Positions 26,695 through 34,133 of a stretch of DNA of 64,000 nt are shown in pieces. How positions within the stretch are numbered: position 1 is the stretch's first letter; each line of letters begins with the position of its first letter. Source of the stretch: Thiocapsa bogorovii. GTDB taxonomy: Bacteria > Pseudomonadota > Gammaproteobacteria > Chromatiales > Chromatiaceae. Both the position numbers and the translations under genes were made by a program. The stretch covers positions 1,116,001 through 1,180,000 of the forward strand of contig NZ_CP089309.1 in the NCBI RefSeq assembly GCF_021228795.1. The letters run 5' to 3'. Below the pieces are notes generated by a model, which saw nothing but the letters and a program-made list of their open reading frames with translations, did no database searches and was not told the DNA's origin.

Positions 26695-29412
26695 GTGAGC
26701 GAAGCGCCGAACAACGCCGAACGCGAACGCTTGGAAGCCGCGCGCAGCAGAAGCGCCGACTGGCGCCTCTGGGGGCCATATCTCGCCGAGCGCGCTTGGG
26801 GTACAGTCCGCGAGGACTATAGCCCGGACGGCACCGCCTGGGAGTATTTCACCCACGACCAGGCCCGCTCGCGCGCCTATCGTTGGAGCGAGGACGGGCT
26901 CGGCGGCATCTGCGACCGCGAGCAGCGACTCTGCTTCGCCTTGGCACTCTGGAACGGACGCGATCCAAACCTGAAGGAACGCGCCTTCGGGCTGACCGGA
27001 CACCAGGGTAATCGCGGCGAGGACGTGAAGGAGTGCTATTTCTATCTCGACGCACTGCCCACCGCGAGCTACCTGCGCTATCTCTACAAATACCCGCAGG
27101 CGCCTTTCCCCTACGGTGCACTGGTCGAGGAGAACGCCCGACGCTCGCGCGAGGATCCGCCCTTCCAACTCACCGACACCGGCTGCTTCGACGCACAGCG
27201 CTATTGGGACGTCGATGTCTTCTATTCCAAGGCCGGGCCGCGCGAGATCCATATCCGCATCTACCTGAAGAACCGCGGTCCGGACGCCGCCGAAATCCAT
27301 CTCTTGCCGACCCTGTGGTTCCGCAACATCTGGTCGTGGGGCGACGATGTGCAGCCTCCTGTGCTTCAGGCGACAACCGCCCCGGACGGCGCCGCCTGGA
27401 CGGTCGAGGCGCAGCACCCGACGCTCGGCACCTATCACCTCTACGGCAGCCATCCCGCGGAGCTGCTCTTCACCGAGAACGACTCCAACGCCGCGCTGCT
27501 CTGGGGCACCCCCAACCCCTCGCCCTACGTCAAGGATGCCTTCCACCGTCGCGTGGTCCAGGGCGAGAAGGCAGCCGTCAATCCGGCGTTGACAGGCACC
27601 AAGTGCGCGGCCTGGAGCCATTGGACCGTCGGTCCGGACCAGCACGCCATGGTCGATCTGGTGCTCAGCGCCGAGCCGCTCGACGCCCCCTTCGCGCGCA
27701 GCGAGCGCACGCTCTCCGTCCGCCAGTCGGAGACCACCGTCTTCTACGACGACCTCTTGCCCGAGGCCGGCGCGACGGACCACCGCATCCTCCGCCAGGC
27801 CCTCGCCGGCATGGTCTGGACCCAGCAGTTCTATCACTACGACGTCGAGCGCTGGCTCGACGGCGATCAGCTCCCGCCGCCGGAATCCCGCCGGCAGGGC
27901 CGCAACCGCCATTGGCGCCATCTCAAGGCGCACGACATCATCTCTATGCCCGACGCCTGGGAGTACCCCTGGTTCGCGGCCTGGGATCTCGCCTATCACT
28001 GCCCGGCGTTGGCCCTGCTGGATGTCGATTTCGCCAAGCATCAGATCGAGTTGATGCTCTCGGATCGCTATCTGCACCCGAACGGCCAGATCCCGGCGTA
28101 CGAGTGGGGTTTCGACGACGCCAATCCGCCGGTCCATGCCCAAGGCGCGCTCAAGGTGTTCCGCGCCGAGCGGGTCCAGCGCGGCACGGGCGATCTGGAC
28201 TTTCTGCAACGCGTCTTCCACAAACTGCTGCTCAATCTGGCCTGGTGGATCAACCGCAAGGACGCCGACGGGCACAACCTCTTCGAAGGTGGCTTCCTCG
28301 GGCTCGACAATATCTCCGTCTACGACCGCTCGCACCCGCTCCCGCCCGGTCACAGTCTCAAACAGGCCGATGCGACCGGCTGGATGGCCATGTTCAGTCT
28401 GGACATGACCGTCATCGCGCTCGAGCTCTGCGCCAAGGACCGCAACTACGAGGCGATGGCGATCCACTGCTACAAACAATTCCTCGCCATCGGCGAGGCA
28501 ATCGCCGGCAACCCGGAGACCGGGATGCCCTCGCTCTGGGACGAGGAGAAAGGCTTCTTCATGGATCTTCTGGTGACCCCCGACGGGGTCGGTCACCGCA
28601 TCGAGGTCTATTCCTGGGTCGGCCTCATCCCGCTCTTCGCCACCGAGATCGTCGACCGGCGCCTCCTCGCCAACGCCCCCCGCTTCGCCGACCTACTGAG
28701 CGCCCACAAAGGCGGACTCTTCCGGGGCAGCACCGTCTGTCTCTGCCCGGACTGGGAGAACGACCGAGGAGAGCACCTGCTCGCTTTGGTCGATCACACC
28801 ATGCTGCCGCGGATCCTGGAGCGCCTGCTCGACGAGGAGCAGTTCCTCTCGCCCTTCGGAATCCGCAGCGTCAGCCGGATCCACGCGACCCAGACCCACC
28901 TGGGGCGCATCCCCGGCATCGGCGAGGCGCTGATGGAATACGTCCCCGGCGAGTCCAACTCGCCCCTCTTCGGCGGCAACTCCAACTGGCGCGGCCCGAT
29001 CTGGCTGCCGACCAACTACTCGCTCGTGCATGCGCTGGAGAAGTACCACCGCTTTCTCGGGCCCGACTTTCAGGTCCCGGTTGCCTGCAAGCAAGGCCAA
29101 CGGCTCAACCTTGCAGAGATCGCCACCTTGATCGCCGAGCGCTTGGTCGATCTCTACCGCCCGCCGAACGGCACTCCGCCCCCGGCCCTGGTGCGCGAGG
29201 GACACCTCCACGACGACGTCCACTGGCGCGATCTGCTGAGCTTCTACGAGTATTTCCACGGCGAAACCGGCGAGGGTCTCGGTGCCGCGCACCAAACCGG
29301 CTGGACGGGCTTGATTGCGAATCTGGTGATGCGCCGCTATCGCAAGGACGTCACGCCCTGGAGCGGTTTGGATCAGGGAACCGAGGCCGCGCCGATCGAC
29401 GAGATTGCGTGA
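26695..29412 (+). CDS. Large glucosidase, GH63/MGH1-like helical-barrel family
   Basis: A 905-residue enzyme. Blocks such as LTGHQGNRGEDVKECYFYLDALPTASYLRYLYKYPQ at the N-terminus and DAWEYPWFAAWDLAYHCPAL, EWGFDDANPPVHAQ, FLGLDNISVYDRS and SNWRGPIWLPTNY in the C-terminal half are those of the large bacterial glucosidases related to GH63 (MGH1-like domain). The W.FAAWD and NW.GP.W stretches hold the expected catalytic acids. I choose the GTG at 26695 since AGGAG lies 8 bases upstream; the open frame further 5' is inside the debranching gene. Working next to that enzyme, it probably acts on glycogen or a related alpha-glucan, but the exact substrate is not visible. Confidence 0.88.
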   Translation: MSEAPNNAERERLEAARSRSADWRLWGPYLAERAWGTVREDYSPDGTAWEYFTHDQARSRAYRWSEDGLGGICDREQRLCFALALWNGRDPNLKERAFGLTGHQGNRGEDVKECYFYLDALPTASYLRYLYKYPQAPFPYGALVEENARRSREDPPFQLTDTGCFDAQRYWDVDVFYSKAGPREIHIRIYLKNRGPDAAEIHLLPTLWFRNIWSWGDDVQPPVLQATTAPDGAAWTVEAQHPTLGTYHLYGSHPAELLFTENDSNAALLWGTPNPSPYVKDAFHRRVVQGEKAAVNPALTGTKCAAWSHWTVGPDQHAMVDLVLSAEPLDAPFARSERTLSVRQSETTVFYDDLLPEAGATDHRILRQALAGMVWTQQFYHYDVERWLDGDQLPPPESRRQGRNRHWRHLKAHDIISMPDAWEYPWFAAWDLAYHCPALALLDVDFAKHQIELMLSDRYLHPNGQIPAYEWGFDDANPPVHAQGALKVFRAERVQRGTGDLDFLQRVFHKLLLNLAWWINRKDADGHNLFEGGFLGLDNISVYDRSHPLPPGHSLKQADATGWMAMFSLDMTVIALELCAKDRNYEAMAIHCYKQFLAIGEAIAGNPETGMPSLWDEEKGFFMDLLVTPDGVGHRIEVYSWVGLIPLFATEIVDRRLLANAPRFADLLSAHKGGLFRGSTVCLCPDWENDRGEHLLALVDHTMLPRILERLLDEEQFLSPFGIRSVSRIHATQTHLGRIPGIGEALMEYVPGESNSPLFGGNSNWRGPIWLPTNYSLVHALEKYHRFLGPDFQVPVACKQGQRLNLAEIATLIAERLVDLYRPPNGTPPPALVREGHLHDDVHWRDLLSFYEYFHGETGEGLGAAHQTGWTGLIANLVMRRYRKDVTPWSGLDQGTEAAPIDEIA

Positions 29413-29526
29413 CCCTGGATCCGGCAGTTGACCGCGTCGTGCCCCACGCGCGAGTGTGAAGCGGTTGACGATCTTGGGCATCTGAGACGGCCTCACCCGC
29501 CGCGTGACGGCCGCTACGACCCCTGG
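29412..29526. repeat. Direct repeat, copy A, flanking the serine-hydrolase island
   Basis: About 115 bases starting ACCCTGGATCCGGCAGTTGACC and including TTGACGATCTTGGGCATCTGA and GTGACGGCCGCTACGACCCC. A diverged copy in the same direction lies at 31481-31587. It looks like the end of an insertion element: on the minus strand an open frame stops (QGS-stop at 29514) at its edge, as also in copy B. Confidence 0.7.
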
Positions 29527-29660
29527 CGCACATCCCAGGGCATCATTCGGGCCAGTTTCACGATCTGCTTGAGAACGGCCGGCACCTCGGAAAAGCGGGC
29601 CTCGAGAATACGTTTCATCGGATCCGGCAGGAGCCGGGGTTCGGAGTTGCTCACACCAAC
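29514..29660 (-). pseudogene. Possible transposase C-terminal scrap
   Basis: On the minus strand, about 48 residues read PRLLPDPMKRILEARFSEVPAVLKQIVKLARMMPWDVRQGS and stop at the edge of repeat copy A. It looks like the end of a real protein, and its position inside an IS-like end suggests a transposase, but I cannot name the family. No start or N-terminal part remains. Confidence 0.3.
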
Positions 29661-29746
29661 CTGCGCGGGCCGCCCTTGCCCTTCCCGCCAATCGGCATGC
29701 CTCGAGCCAAACGCCAGGGATTTACCACGTGATGGGGAAAGCAAAG

Positions 29747-30880
29747 ATGCGAAACGACAGATTGCTGTTATGTCTTGGCCTGGTATCGGCACTTATTCTT
29801 TCCGATTACGGTGACGTCTCGCGCGCGAGGGCGCAAGGCGATTCGATACCAACCATTGACGCCAACTCCTTTGAGCGGGCTGTCCAGAGACTGAGAAAGG
29901 AAACTGATGCTCACGCTGTGATCGCAGGCATCTGGATAGGGGACCGCAACATAAGTCAAGTCGCATTGGGTGAATCTATGGCAGGTGTGCCGGCCACCAC
30001 GGAGATGACGGTAAGGATCGGTGGTGTTTCCCAACTCTTCTTCGGAACCATGTTGATGAGAGTGGTGGAACGGGAAGAGATCGCTTTGGACGATAAGATC
30101 TCAACGTGGCTCCCCGATCTATTGGCAGCAGACAAAGTGACTGTCGGGATGCTCGCCAACAATACGGCAGGATACAAAGACTTTGTTCGAGACGAGGGCT
30201 TTCAAAAGCAGGTGACCGAGGCCCCTTTTCGAACCTTCACTCGAGAAGAGCTCATCGCGATTTCGGTGGGCGGAAACGAGCTCAACTTTGAGCCAGGGAC
30301 AGCTCAAGCTTACTCGCATACGGAGTTTATTCTCCTTCGAGAGGTTCTCGAGAAGGCCACGGGCCGGTCAATTGAGGAACTGTATCAAACCGAGGTGCTA
30401 GACCCATTAGGTCTGACTCGGACGGGCTACCAGACAACTCCGGAATTGCCCGCCCCGGTTTTGCATGCGTTTAGCTCGGACCGAGCGGTCTATGAGGACT
30501 CGACGTTTTGGAACCCATCGTGGGCAAGCGACTCAGGTCCCCTTTACTCCACGTTGGGCGACCAGGGAAAGTGGGGACCGGCCTTTGGACAGGGACGTTT
30601 GCTGACTCCAGCAGCCTTTGTGCAACTGACCAAGCGACCCGACGGGGCTCCTCCTACAGGCCCCTATTTCGCCACCGGTTTTGTAGTCTCCAACGGTTGG
30701 TACTTTCATAATCCGAACTTTAACGGCTATACCGGCGCCTTGGGTTACAACTCCGACTTGGATATGACCATCGTCGTCTATGCAACCCAGCCGGAAGATC
30801 CGAAGGTGGTTCACCCCGGCTTCGAGGTGTTCAAAGGGCTCGTCGAAGAATTCGCTCCGAACCATCCTTTGGGAATCTAG
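29747..30880 (+). CDS. Exported serine-hydrolase (beta-lactamase-like) protein lacking catalytic residues
   Basis: About 377 residues with a signal peptide (MRNDRLLLCLGLVSALILS, cut probably after RAQ). The fold is that of class C beta-lactamase/DD-peptidase relatives: LFFGTMLMRVVEREEIALDDKISTWLPDL, VTVGMLANNTAGYKDF, and LGLTRTGYQTTPEL. Yet the SxxK nucleophile motif, normally in RIGSVTK, reads RIGGVSQ (Ser to Gly93, Lys to Gln96) and the YxN motif is YSH. It is thus probably not an active serine hydrolase. Codon use is visibly less GC-rich than the neighbours and repeats flank it, suggesting transfer. Start codons at 29729 (GTG) and 29732 are alternatives; I picked the ATG directly before the signal peptide. 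Confidence 0.8.
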   Translation: MRNDRLLLCLGLVSALILSDYGDVSRARAQGDSIPTIDANSFERAVQRLRKETDAHAVIAGIWIGDRNISQVALGESMAGVPATTEMTVRIGGVSQLFFGTMLMRVVEREEIALDDKISTWLPDLLAADKVTVGMLANNTAGYKDFVRDEGFQKQVTEAPFRTFTREELIAISVGGNELNFEPGTAQAYSHTEFILLREVLEKATGRSIEELYQTEVLDPLGLTRTGYQTTPELPAPVLHAFSSDRAVYEDSTFWNPSWASDSGPLYSTLGDQGKWGPAFGQGRLLTPAAFVQLTKRPDGAPPTGPYFATGFVVSNGWYFHNPNFNGYTGALGYNSDLDMTIVVYATQPEDPKVVHPGFEVFKGLVEEFAPNHPLGI

Positions 30881-31168: not shown

Positions 31169-31235
31169 GACGACACTGATTTAGCGATATGCCGCAGTCC
31201 AGTGTTTACGCGGGACTGGAGCACGACGCTTTGTA

Positions 31236-31418
31236 TCAATCCCAGTAGTAGGTATCGGCATAAATTCCGGTGTACTTGTGCTTATTCTTCAACTTGGTTT
31301 CATAGGAAAGTTTCTGGTGATAGCGCCAGCCGTTTTTATCTTCGTCCGTAAGCTCGCCGTCATGGTTCAGATCAACAGGGCCGCGCTGTTGCCCGCGCAC
31401 CAGTTTTATCATCGGCAC
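31236..31418 (-). CDS. Small hypothetical protein or fragment with an EF-hand-like loop
   Basis: A 60-residue frame, MPMIKLVRGQQRGPVDLNHDGELTDEDKNGW then a basic, Tyr-rich tail ending YADTYYWD. DLNHDGELTDED is a good calcium-binding-loop pattern of the EF-hand/dockerin type, which is unlikely by chance. It may be the C-terminal end of a lost larger protein. No ribosome binding site is evident and the region is part of the low-GC island, so I am unsure it is expressed. Confidence 0.35.
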   Translation of the reverse strand: MPMIKLVRGQQRGPVDLNHDGELTDEDKNGWRYHQKLSYETKLKNKHKYTGIYADTYYWD

Positions 31419-31480
31419 TTAGGCACGCATCCCGGTTGAAGGAACGCCCAGTCATCCCGATTTCCGGACCTCAGGTGATA

Positions 31481-31587: not shown

Positions 31588-31779
31588 AGCACGCCCCGCG
31601 CGGCGCCAGACTGCGTTGCAGCGCGTTGTTGTAGAACCACGATGCCGCCTTGCCGGACACCGCGCGGGACGCAATCCAAGGGCCGATCAAATGCCGAATT
31701 TAGGATAATGCTGCATCCCAACGGGCTGCAGACACTGCATTTTTCGTCCATTTTATCCAGCAGGTGATCCCTCTTGTCG

Positions 31780-32508
31780 ATGAAACCCCTTGTGATCGCG
31801 AACGATGTCATCTCCGACCTCGCGTTGGATGTCACGCAGGCGGTGCTCGCCCGGACCGAGGAAGCCCAGTCGATCATGGAGGACCAATCCGGTCCGATCG
31901 ATCTGGCGCGGGCCCTGGCGGACTTCTTCCCGATCGCCGGGGCCTTGGAAAGCGGAGCGGCGCATCTCGAACAGGAACAACTGCAGGAATTCTGTGCCTA
32001 CGGATTGGATTTGCTTGACCGTCTCGCCTTCCTGGTGCGGAAGGTTGAGATCATGGACAGGAGAGAGACGGTCGCGCGCATGTTTGCCTCGATGGGGGTA
32101 TGGGTCGCCCGCCGCGGCGCGACCATCGACAATTTGGAGGGGACCGCCGACGGCTTCGGCATCATCGTGAACGCCACGAGCGCGCCCGACGATCTTCGAT
32201 CCTTGTGCGGCCTTATGGAGGAGGTCATCGATGCAGCATCGATGAGATTACAACTGGACGAGAACCGTGGTGACGCCTGGCGTCCTTGGCGCGTGATCAA
32301 CCTCAACACCGGCATTGCCGCAACCCGCTCGCTCGACCCAGAGCTCATGGAGCGAACCTTCGAGAAAATGAGCCGGCGGCTGCCTTACGACATGCCGGGT
32401 TTCCTTGCCGACGGCATGCGGCAAGCGGCCTTCCAAAACGTACCGGATGCGGTCAAGGATGTGATGCGCAGACACATGGAAAGGTGGCCGGCCAACGCAC
32501 TCCACTAG
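31780..32508 (+). CDS. Unknown helical protein
   Basis: A 242-residue soluble protein, mostly helical, with no signal peptide or membrane segment. Blocks such as LALDVTQAVLARTEEAQSIMED, FPIAGALESGAAHLEQEQLQEFCAYGLDLLDRLAFL and MGVWVARRGATIDNLEGTADGFGIIVNATSAPDDL look like a real conserved protein, but I do not recognise the family. I use the ATG at 31780; a TTG two codons earlier is possible. It is separated from its neighbours, and a hairpin follows at 32555. Confidence 0.72.
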   Translation: MKPLVIANDVISDLALDVTQAVLARTEEAQSIMEDQSGPIDLARALADFFPIAGALESGAAHLEQEQLQEFCAYGLDLLDRLAFLVRKVEIMDRRETVARMFASMGVWVARRGATIDNLEGTADGFGIIVNATSAPDDLRSLCGLMEEVIDAASMRLQLDENRGDAWRPWRVINLNTGIAATRSLDPELMERTFEKMSRRLPYDMPGFLADGMRQAAFQNVPDAVKDVMRRHMERWPANALH

Positions 32509-32691: not shown

Positions 32692-33006
32692 TTAGAGCTT
32701 GTGTGCGTAGAGGACCTCGATCTCGTCGAGATACGCGATGCCGGAGAAGTTATCGAAGTATTTCTCGGCGATCTTGGCGGCGATCTCGCGCGCGACCCCT
32801 TCGTTCGCGGTGATGATCTCGAGCTTGACGTTGGAGAAGGTGTCGGAGACGGCCGGTTGACCGGAAGATCGCGTGTTGCGGCTGCCCTTGCCGCCGGCAG
32901 CCATGACCGTGTAGCCGGTCGCGGCGCTCGCCTCGAGAATCTTAGAAATGTCTCTCAGGAGCACCTTTTCGGTGATAACCACGAGCTTGGTCGCTTGCTG
33001 TGCCAT
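32692..33006 (-). CDS. sbtB: SbtB-like PII-family regulator of bicarbonate uptake
   Basis: A 104-residue PII-like protein. KLVVITEKVLLRDISKILEASAATGYTVMAAGGKGSRNT gives the PII fold with a T-loop region (about 40-58), and FSNVKLEIITANEGVAREIAAKI is the second half-repeat. SbtB proteins bind adenine nucleotides including cAMP and c-di-AMP, and gate SbtA. The pairing with sbtA 122 bases upstream in the same direction makes this assignment firm. There is no Cys-containing redox extension at the C-terminus, which ends EVLYAHKL. Confidence 0.92.
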   Translation of the reverse strand: MAQQATKLVVITEKVLLRDISKILEASAATGYTVMAAGGKGSRNTRSSGQPAVSDTFSNVKLEIITANEGVAREIAAKIAEKYFDNFSGIAYLDEIEVLYAHKL

Positions 33007-33128: not shown

Positions 33129-34133
33129 TTAGATTCCGAATACCGCCTGGGCGAGACCGATGTAAAGCGGTATCCCGATGGCGATGGCAACCGGCGTGCC
33201 GATACTCGTCGAGGCGCCGACGTAGGCAGACGGGTTCGCCGTCGGGATGCCGGCCCTCAAGGTCGGCGGCCCCGAGATGTCCGAGCTGGAGCCGGCGATC
33301 ACGGCCAGCAGCACCACGCCGCCGGGACTGAACCCTGTCAAGATATGGGCGATGTAGCCAAGCCCGAACGCGATCAGGCCATGCACCAGCGGCGCGATCA
33401 AGGCATAGACCGCATACCAGTGTGCGACACGGCGCAGCTCATTGAGCCGGGTATAGGCTTCCATGCCCATCACCAGCATCAGCACCGAGAGCAGACCCTT
33501 GAACAAGGGATCGTAGAAGCCTTCAAAGACCTTCTCGGGTTGGGTAAAGAGGCCGATAGCGATACCGAGCAACAGTGCGGACAGCGCCGAGCCCTGCAGG
33601 CTCTCTTTGACGATCGGCCAGATCCTCACCTTCTCCGAGGTTCCGTCTCTGTGCCGCAAGTAGAGGTTCGCGAGCACGATTGCCATCACCAGTGCGGGGA
33701 TATCCATAAAGGGATACAGCGCTGGCGCCCAATGCTCATAGGAGATGCCCTCGCTCTCCATCACGACGATGGCCGCTGCCAGGGTCGAGCCGCTCACGGC
33801 TCCGAACAGGCCCGCTGTGGCGATGCCGTCTTCGGTCCGGACGCTCGGCAGGAGCGCCAGGGTGAAGCGGCCGATCAGGACGATGACGATGCCGATCAGG
33901 ATCGCAAAAAAGGCCGGCAGCAACATGTCGGCGAGGTTTGCCTCGCGGATCGACATACCGCCGTCGAGCCCGACGCGCATCAGCAGCATGAAGACCACGA
34001 ACTTGTAGATGGCATCCGGGATTTCGAGCTTCGTGCCAAGCGCGGCGATCAAAATGCCGCCGATCAGGAACGCCAGGGTTGGCGATTGAAATTGCGTCAA
34101 GAATCGGGTGAAGAATTCCAGCAATGCTTCCAA
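33129..34133 (-). CDS. sbtA: Sodium-dependent bicarbonate transporter SbtA
   Basis: A 334-residue membrane protein with about ten hydrophobic segments. PTLAFLIGGILIAALGTKLEIPDAIYKFVVFMLLMRVGLDGG and LFGAVSGSTLAAAIVVMESEGI are typical of the SbtA family, and the second repeat has AVIAGSSSDISGPPTLRAGIPTANPSAY with the substrate/sodium site. It would bring bicarbonate into the cell for carbon fixation, as expected in an autotroph. A GC-rich hairpin (33097-33115) lies in the gap to sbtB and may set their relative expression. The two genes form an operon. Confidence 0.95.
   Translation of the reverse strand: MEALLEFFTRFLTQFQSPTLAFLIGGILIAALGTKLEIPDAIYKFVVFMLLMRVGLDGGMSIREANLADMLLPAFFAILIGIVIVLIGRFTLALLPSVRTEDGIATAGLFGAVSGSTLAAAIVVMESEGISYEHWAPALYPFMDIPALVMAIVLANLYLRHRDGTSEKVRIWPIVKESLQGSALSALLLGIAIGLFTQPEKVFEGFYDPLFKGLLSVLMLVMGMEAYTRLNELRRVAHWYAVYALIAPLVHGLIAFGLGYIAHILTGFSPGGVVLLAVIAGSSSDISGPPTLRAGIPTANPSAYVGASTSIGTPVAIAIGIPLYIGLAQAVFGI

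Follow-up and report, generated by a model that had tools for sequence, protein, structure and literature searches.

The gene at positions 29,747 to 30,880 of the window (the whole 64,000-nucleotide stretch of Thiocapsa bogorovii DNA analysed here) encodes what is, in our judgement, probably a non-acylating exported protein whose remodelled cleft, in an R61-type DD-peptidase fold, binds a ligand; for the gene, preservation as a non-enzyme is likelier than decay. The S12 family (PF00144) and pseudoenzymes as a kind are already known; the protein belongs to what is apparently a conserved and unnamed clade of catalytically dead S12 proteins, found mostly in mycobacteria and other actinobacteria. 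Among the titles and abstract openings of the open-licence full-text literature we recognised no description of such a clade of S12 or penicillin-binding-protein pseudoenzymes, which is weak evidence of novelty.

All three catalytic motifs are altered in the window protein

The features of the gene are as follows.

29747..30880, plus strand: coding sequence of the dead S12 (PF00144) protein, ATG start, 377 residues, stop-free
29747..29833, plus strand: putative Sec signal peptide, M1-A29, with cleavage between A-R-A and Q, read by eye on the translation
30023..30034, plus strand: former SxxK motif, G93-V94-S95-Q96, aligned to R61 Ser62-Lys65
30311..30319, plus strand: former YxN motif, Y189-S190-H191, with Y and H each present in 70/70 clade members
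30464..30523, plus strand: clade signature loop, H240...R246...Y249-E250-D251-S252-T-F-W255-N-P-S-W259, from alignments
30707..30715, plus strand: former HxG motif, H321-N322-P323, which is HxG in intact relatives

The open frame extends from 29729 to 30880 on the plus strand, where a GTG at 29729 could serve as an alternative start and lengthen the protein by six residues, and the 377 codons from the ATG at 29747 are free of stops, as a preliminary description of the gene had stated. That description also considered the signal peptide intact, and the N-terminus agrees with this by eye, having n-region arginines, a hydrophobic core and the A-R-A/Q junction; a loose lipobox pattern precedes the domain in 48 of the 70 clade members, at least one of these matches being clearly misplaced. 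The PF00144 profile scores 142.1 bits over residues 42-352, where the cut-off is 27. The NCBIfam equivalog cut-offs are reached neither for class C beta-lactamase (29.6 bits vs 415) nor for the AmpH carboxypeptidase/endopeptidase (61.7 bits vs 266), and NCBIfam cut-offs are passed by none of the 25 matches listed, out of 35, for the window protein. RNA families at gathering scores were absent from the window (the lone sub-threshold match, E 0.47, is regarded as chance), and a promoter and terminator scan returned no promoter-like sites and five terminator-like sites against 2.7 expected.

Penicillin-binding proteins and serine beta-lactamases carry an SxxK motif with the nucleophilic serine, a second motif [SY]x[NT] and a third that is [KH][ST]G or HxG (PMC2266909). 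The window protein has none of the three, with GVSQ, YSH and HNP at the respective places. In a phmmer alignment to the R61 DD-peptidase (1cef), on which the R61 residue numbers were counted, Ser62, Lys65, Tyr159 and Asn161, which we take to be the catalytic positions, fall on G93, Q96, Y189 and H191, bearing out the earlier readings of SxxK as GVSQ and of YxN as YSH, while the change of the third motif from HxG to HNP goes beyond the two motifs previously described. Pattern searches over all 377 residues gave zero matches to S..K, Y.N and [KH][ST]G; the looser [KH].G has matches at 275 and 356 alone, both distant from the third motif, and the loose second-motif pattern [SY]x[NT] has matches off place, the motif place itself being occupied by Y189-S-H191. 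As the motif patterns are absent throughout the protein, a shifted motif is excluded, including the displaced true SxxK that the preliminary description had named as contrary to its reading.

A clade of S12 proteins has lost the motif lysine

Among bacterial and archaeal species genomes, the first relatives to be returned were proteins of two Legionella species, L. moravica and L. bononiensis, and of four mycobacteria, and a plasmid search added one further relative, in Streptomyces; over the alignments these relatives have 34-40% identity to the window protein. A profile (A1) built from seven of those eight dead sequences, the window protein included, was run on 369 genomes of the window's class, 210 of its order, 251 of the M. 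shimoidei family, 346 of the M. shimoidei phylum and 93 of the L. moravica family, and removal of 20 duplicates from the 160 rows of the motif table left 140 non-duplicate matches. The dead class was defined as at least 320 bits to A1; the window protein is itself among the rows of A1, and the sharpness of the motif split and the building of the trees with motif columns masked reduce the circularity rather than remove it.

At 320 bits or more, the 70 non-duplicate proteins (window included) have the motif lysine in 0/70 and YxH in 70/70; the serine is kept in six, 64 lack both serine and lysine, and one member, L045, ends at a contig edge ahead of the third motif. Every match between 150 and 320 bits carries S..K (44/44), with YxN (39) or YxD (5) as second motif, and below 150 bits S..K is present in 23 of 26 non-duplicates and missing in three. 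All 15 members added at 320 bits or more from the sample of the M. shimoidei family likewise lack the lysine and have YxH, bringing the total read to 85 of 85 (70 plus 15, window included). The family alignment that had been proposed as a check shows the loss of the lysine and the YxH to be conserved.

Places scoring at least 320 bits occur in at least 51 of the 251 genomes of the M. shimoidei family, in at least two of the 93 of the L. moravica family and in at least 11 of the 346 of the M. shimoidei phylum, three of which are shared with the family's 51; these hand counts include the centre genomes and are lower bounds, part of the candidates having been scored per genome. Within the class sample of 369 genomes the family score was reached in the window's own genome only, and the 209 other genomes of its order gave no comparable match. 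Recognising the clade would correct hydrolase and beta-lactamase annotations, for example in resistome scans: the SxxK lysine is found in 0 of 85 members, whereas the member WP_331747208.1 is annotated 'serine hydrolase domain-containing protein' and Pfam labels the window protein Beta-lactamase. The clade would also offer, in at least 51 of the 251 sampled genomes of one Mycobacterium family, defined fixed residues with a testable new role.

Three distant S12-like proteins outside the clade also have altered first motifs, Q..N in both L053 and L054 (Legionella genomes) and G..Q in L039 (a genome of the window's class), and are perhaps independent losses. On viral contigs, 50 stretches matched a pattern and zero encode a relative.

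The dead proteins group together, with purifying selection in close pairs

In a first tree with motif columns masked (121 rows, 69 of the 70 dead proteins and 52 intact ones) the dead proteins all fall on one side of a branch whose SH-aLRT is 93, and two long intact rows, L007 and L009, lie beside them. A second tree, masked in the same way and comprising 65 rows (35 dead, of which 12 chosen and 23 random, and 30 intact), omits 12 long, odd or partial rows, L007 and L009 among them, and again places the dead proteins on one side of a branch, with support of 100/99. The window protein groups with three Legionellaceae in both trees (97 in the first, 100/97 in the second), its exact place being less sure because its end branch is long (about 1.0).

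Close pairs within the dead clade are under purifying selection, with a median dN/dS of 0.19 (range 0.04-0.37, 57 non-independent pairs), and the median for close pairs of intact relatives is 0.21 (12 pairs); the unfiltered medians, 0.54 (2037 pairs) and 0.56 (596 pairs), are dominated by distant pairs with near-saturated dS. The window gene is without a close relative, the best identity of its product to any relative being about 40%, and selection on this copy can therefore be read only from the residues it has retained: 37 of the 39 columns with at least 95% conservation among the other 69 members, at a median identity of 34.5%, and seven of seven family-specific conserved columns, as scored on a profile in which the window protein is one of seven rows.

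The predicted fold is that of R61-type DD-peptidases

The AlphaFold2 model of the window protein (mean pLDDT 73.8, from an alignment of only 7 sequences) superposes on the alkaline D-peptidase 4y7p with a VIA Z of 31.6 and an rmsd of 3.4 over 316 residues and on R61 (1hvb) with a VIA Z of 30.8, and its top Foldseek match is R61 (1ikg). The model of the Mycobacterium shimoidei member (mean pLDDT 74.8, also from only seven sequences) matches 9s7k with a Z of 33.9 and an rmsd of 2.6 over 322 residues, tied with the rows that follow it. On these predicted models the window protein would have an S12/DD-peptidase fold of the R61 type; the structure prediction suggested earlier, which matches 4y7p and R61, backs the claim that the fold elements are intact.

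By sequence, the closest solved structures are 4y7p and R61 for the window protein and 3wwx, 4y7p and R61 for the family profile. The Streptomyces R61 DD-peptidase (1cef, 1ikg, 3pte) is alike in fold and matches residues 75-295 with an E of 1.2e-24, its Tyr159 and Trp233 have counterparts in Y189 and W259, and it is an exported enzyme, as the window protein putatively is from its N-terminus; unlike R61, the window protein has G93, Q96 and H191 in place of Ser62, Lys65 and Asn161, and HNP at the third motif. The alkaline D-peptidase of Bacillus cereus (4y7p) and the D-stereospecific amidohydrolase (3wwx), which are among its best sequence and fold relatives, carry Ser..Lys as first motif and YSN as second in the alignments, whereas the window protein lacks both. 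The nearest intact proteins by profile, at 218-252 bits, are S12 paralogues of the mycobacterial family (L135-L149), most of which contain WNPSW; their S..K, YxN and HNG are intact, and His191 is found in none of them and Glu250 rarely.

A tblastn search with the window protein also returned 1043 phage records, of which 1036 carry a Mycobacterium or Mycolicibacterium name, and most of the 15 phage matches listed are annotated as minor tail proteins. Two that were read, Renaud18 gp21 and MadMen gp20 of mycobacteriophages, have a similar S12 domain with intact motifs (SATK, YTN and HAG), unlike the changed ones of the window protein, and were rejected as members of the same family.

A new set of residues is fixed around the old cleft

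The places of the former catalytic pair are variable in the 70 members, with A in 41, Q in 17, S in six, G in four and N and F in one each at the old serine, and I in 44, E in 20, F in three and Q, M and Y in one each at the old lysine, so the former nucleophile site has no single, uniform new use. Elsewhere several positions are nearly or fully invariant: Tyr189, His191, Glu250 and Asp145 are each present in 70/70, as is Ser/Thr252, followed by Arg246 (69/70), Pro323 (68/70) and Asn322 (67/70). Among the 44 intact relatives Tyr189 is found in 44, Asn322 in 25, Asp145 in 13, Glu250 in eight and His191 in none. Since W259 aligns with R61 Trp233 by phmmer, the signature loop would run, by homology, into the old cleft. 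H240 was dropped as a novelty of the clade, because R61 has His-Ala there in the phmmer alignment. His191, Arg246 and Glu250 may lie together in one pocket, a candidate arrangement given that the loop (residues 242-260) has a pLDDT below 50 in the window model.

The clade-wide loss in 85 of 85 members, the single clade, the close-pair dN/dS and the family-specific fixed residues together argue that the protein is kept and that it is not a serine acyl-enzyme, in support of the first proposal, a kept protein that is non-catalytic or uses different chemistry. Judged from its motifs, acyl-enzyme formation should be impossible for the window protein. With an enzyme fold, missing catalytic residues and conservation of the clade under selection, it would fit the description of an S12-derived pseudoenzyme, a counterpoint being the six of 70 members that retain the serine. 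By a further step of inference, ligand binding would take place outside the cytoplasm, with the cleft as binding site.

We propose that the motif lysine, the YxN asparagine and HxG, and mostly the serine too, were lost on one branch from an S12 protein of the R61/alkaline D-peptidase lineage, and that His191, Glu250, Arg246, Pro323 and Thr347 became fixed instead; the protein would then have been retained in mycobacteria and other actinobacteria, and horizontal transfer would account for the copies in the window genome and a few Legionellaceae. The binding site would be the former cleft in a form rebuilt around Tyr189/His191 and the 240-259 loop, and its ligand most plausibly a peptide of the type cleaved by the enzyme relatives. 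More tentatively, it is possible that an ancestral S12 DD-peptidase, once without its serine, lysine and asparagine, had its cleft rebuilt from a Tyr-His pair and an Arg/Glu loop to found an exported family of new function, either a cell-wall or D-peptide receptor or a non-serine enzyme, which spread horizontally from actinobacteria to gammaproteobacteria.

Tyr189, His191, Glu250 and Asp145 are conserved beyond what a scaffold would need and could be catalytic. The main rival reading is that the protein may be a retooled enzyme of non-serine chemistry, in which Tyr189 and His191, perhaps with Glu250/Asp145, would serve in acid/base catalysis or metal binding; we consider this rather unlikely. 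Their invariance in the clade, with His191 and Glu250 absent or rare in intact relatives, speaks for it, and the AmpC N152H structures in the PDB (1l0f) indicate that the fold can accommodate a histidine at this place. Against it, the family and structure matches listed include no enzyme of this fold recognised as having such a site, in searches that are blind to chemistry, and the signature loop that would shape the pocket is modelled with low confidence.

Gene neighbourhoods vary between phyla

No neighbour of the clade genes is common to different phyla among the 18 largest clusters from 54 loci, and a conserved operon partner was rejected on these clusters; as neighbourhoods are not conserved across phyla, context names neither ligand nor function. 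Recurring neighbours are acyl-CoA dehydrogenase-like (9 loci) and acyl-CoA ligase-like (7 loci) genes in variable positions, both kinds being common in mycobacteria. Trehalose-phosphatase lies upstream of the clade gene in two mycobacteria, and the neighbours include citrate synthase and gyrase A for the L. moravica member and citrate synthase for that of L. bononiensis.

An intact S12 gene near the dead one, as would be expected if the protein were paired with an active S12 enzyme as its scaffold or regulator (a pseudoenzyme-enzyme pair), was found at L157, L158 and L184. These three neighbours are mutually similar, and those at L157 (5374-7893) and L158 (11594-13606) bear a C-terminal DUF3471. 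Such a partnership is nonetheless improbable for the clade: the three are the only cases in 55 loci (covering about 6-8 kb per side, some ended by contig ends), the A-type dead neighbours there all belong to one branch of the mycobacterial set, and the 6-kb flanks of the window gene itself are without an intact S12. Pairing with an active S12 was rejected as a general rule.

The window copy was probably acquired horizontally

The gene adjoins a repeat that is found on both of its sides.

29412..29536, plus strand: left copy of a roughly 120-bp interspersed repeat, adjoining the low-GC segment
31481..31597, plus strand: right copy of the same roughly 120-bp repeat, in direct orientation, about 2.06 kb from the left copy

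A query spanning 29400-29740 matched 29 places in the genome, counted over both strands and with the left and right copies included. GC3 is 0.61 in the window gene vs 0.80-0.85 in five neighbours, and in 400-base steps the GC content is 52-57% across most of the gene vs 62-70% at 25.0-29.2 kb; 3' of the gene it remains within 52-58% as far as about 31.8 kb, then rises to 59-66% up to 34.2 kb, near which there is a further dip to 54%. The low GC and GC3, the flanking repeats and the isolated occurrence indicate that this copy was probably gained by horizontal transfer.

An acquired segment of low GC that lies between repeats and has broken frames close by is also what one would see were the window copy a pseudogene in the course of being lost. 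This is very improbable, as the copy has 377 stop-free codons and keeps 37 of 39 conserved columns at about 35% identity, and the motif loss is common to the whole clade, for which a pseudogene was rejected on the shared loss, the close-pair dN/dS and the 15 further members. The chance that misalignment hides a true SxxK elsewhere in an ordinary hydrolase is negligible, with S..K absent from the 377 residues and the phmmer and profile alignments agreeing on the motif place.

The genes around the kept S12 protein encode a glycogen-debranching enzyme, a GH63/MGH1-like glycosidase, a P-II protein, an SbtA-type bicarbonate transporter and a SulP transporter. A low-GC intergenic stretch at 31229-31429 on the minus strand is broken by stops in the single frame read, and to call it the remnant of an acquired gene would be a guess; the 244-residue open frame at 31774-32508 is without a Pfam match at E 0.001. 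The P-II protein (32692-33006) and the SbtA-type bicarbonate transporter (33129-34133), both on the minus strand, form an SbtA/SbtB-like pair.
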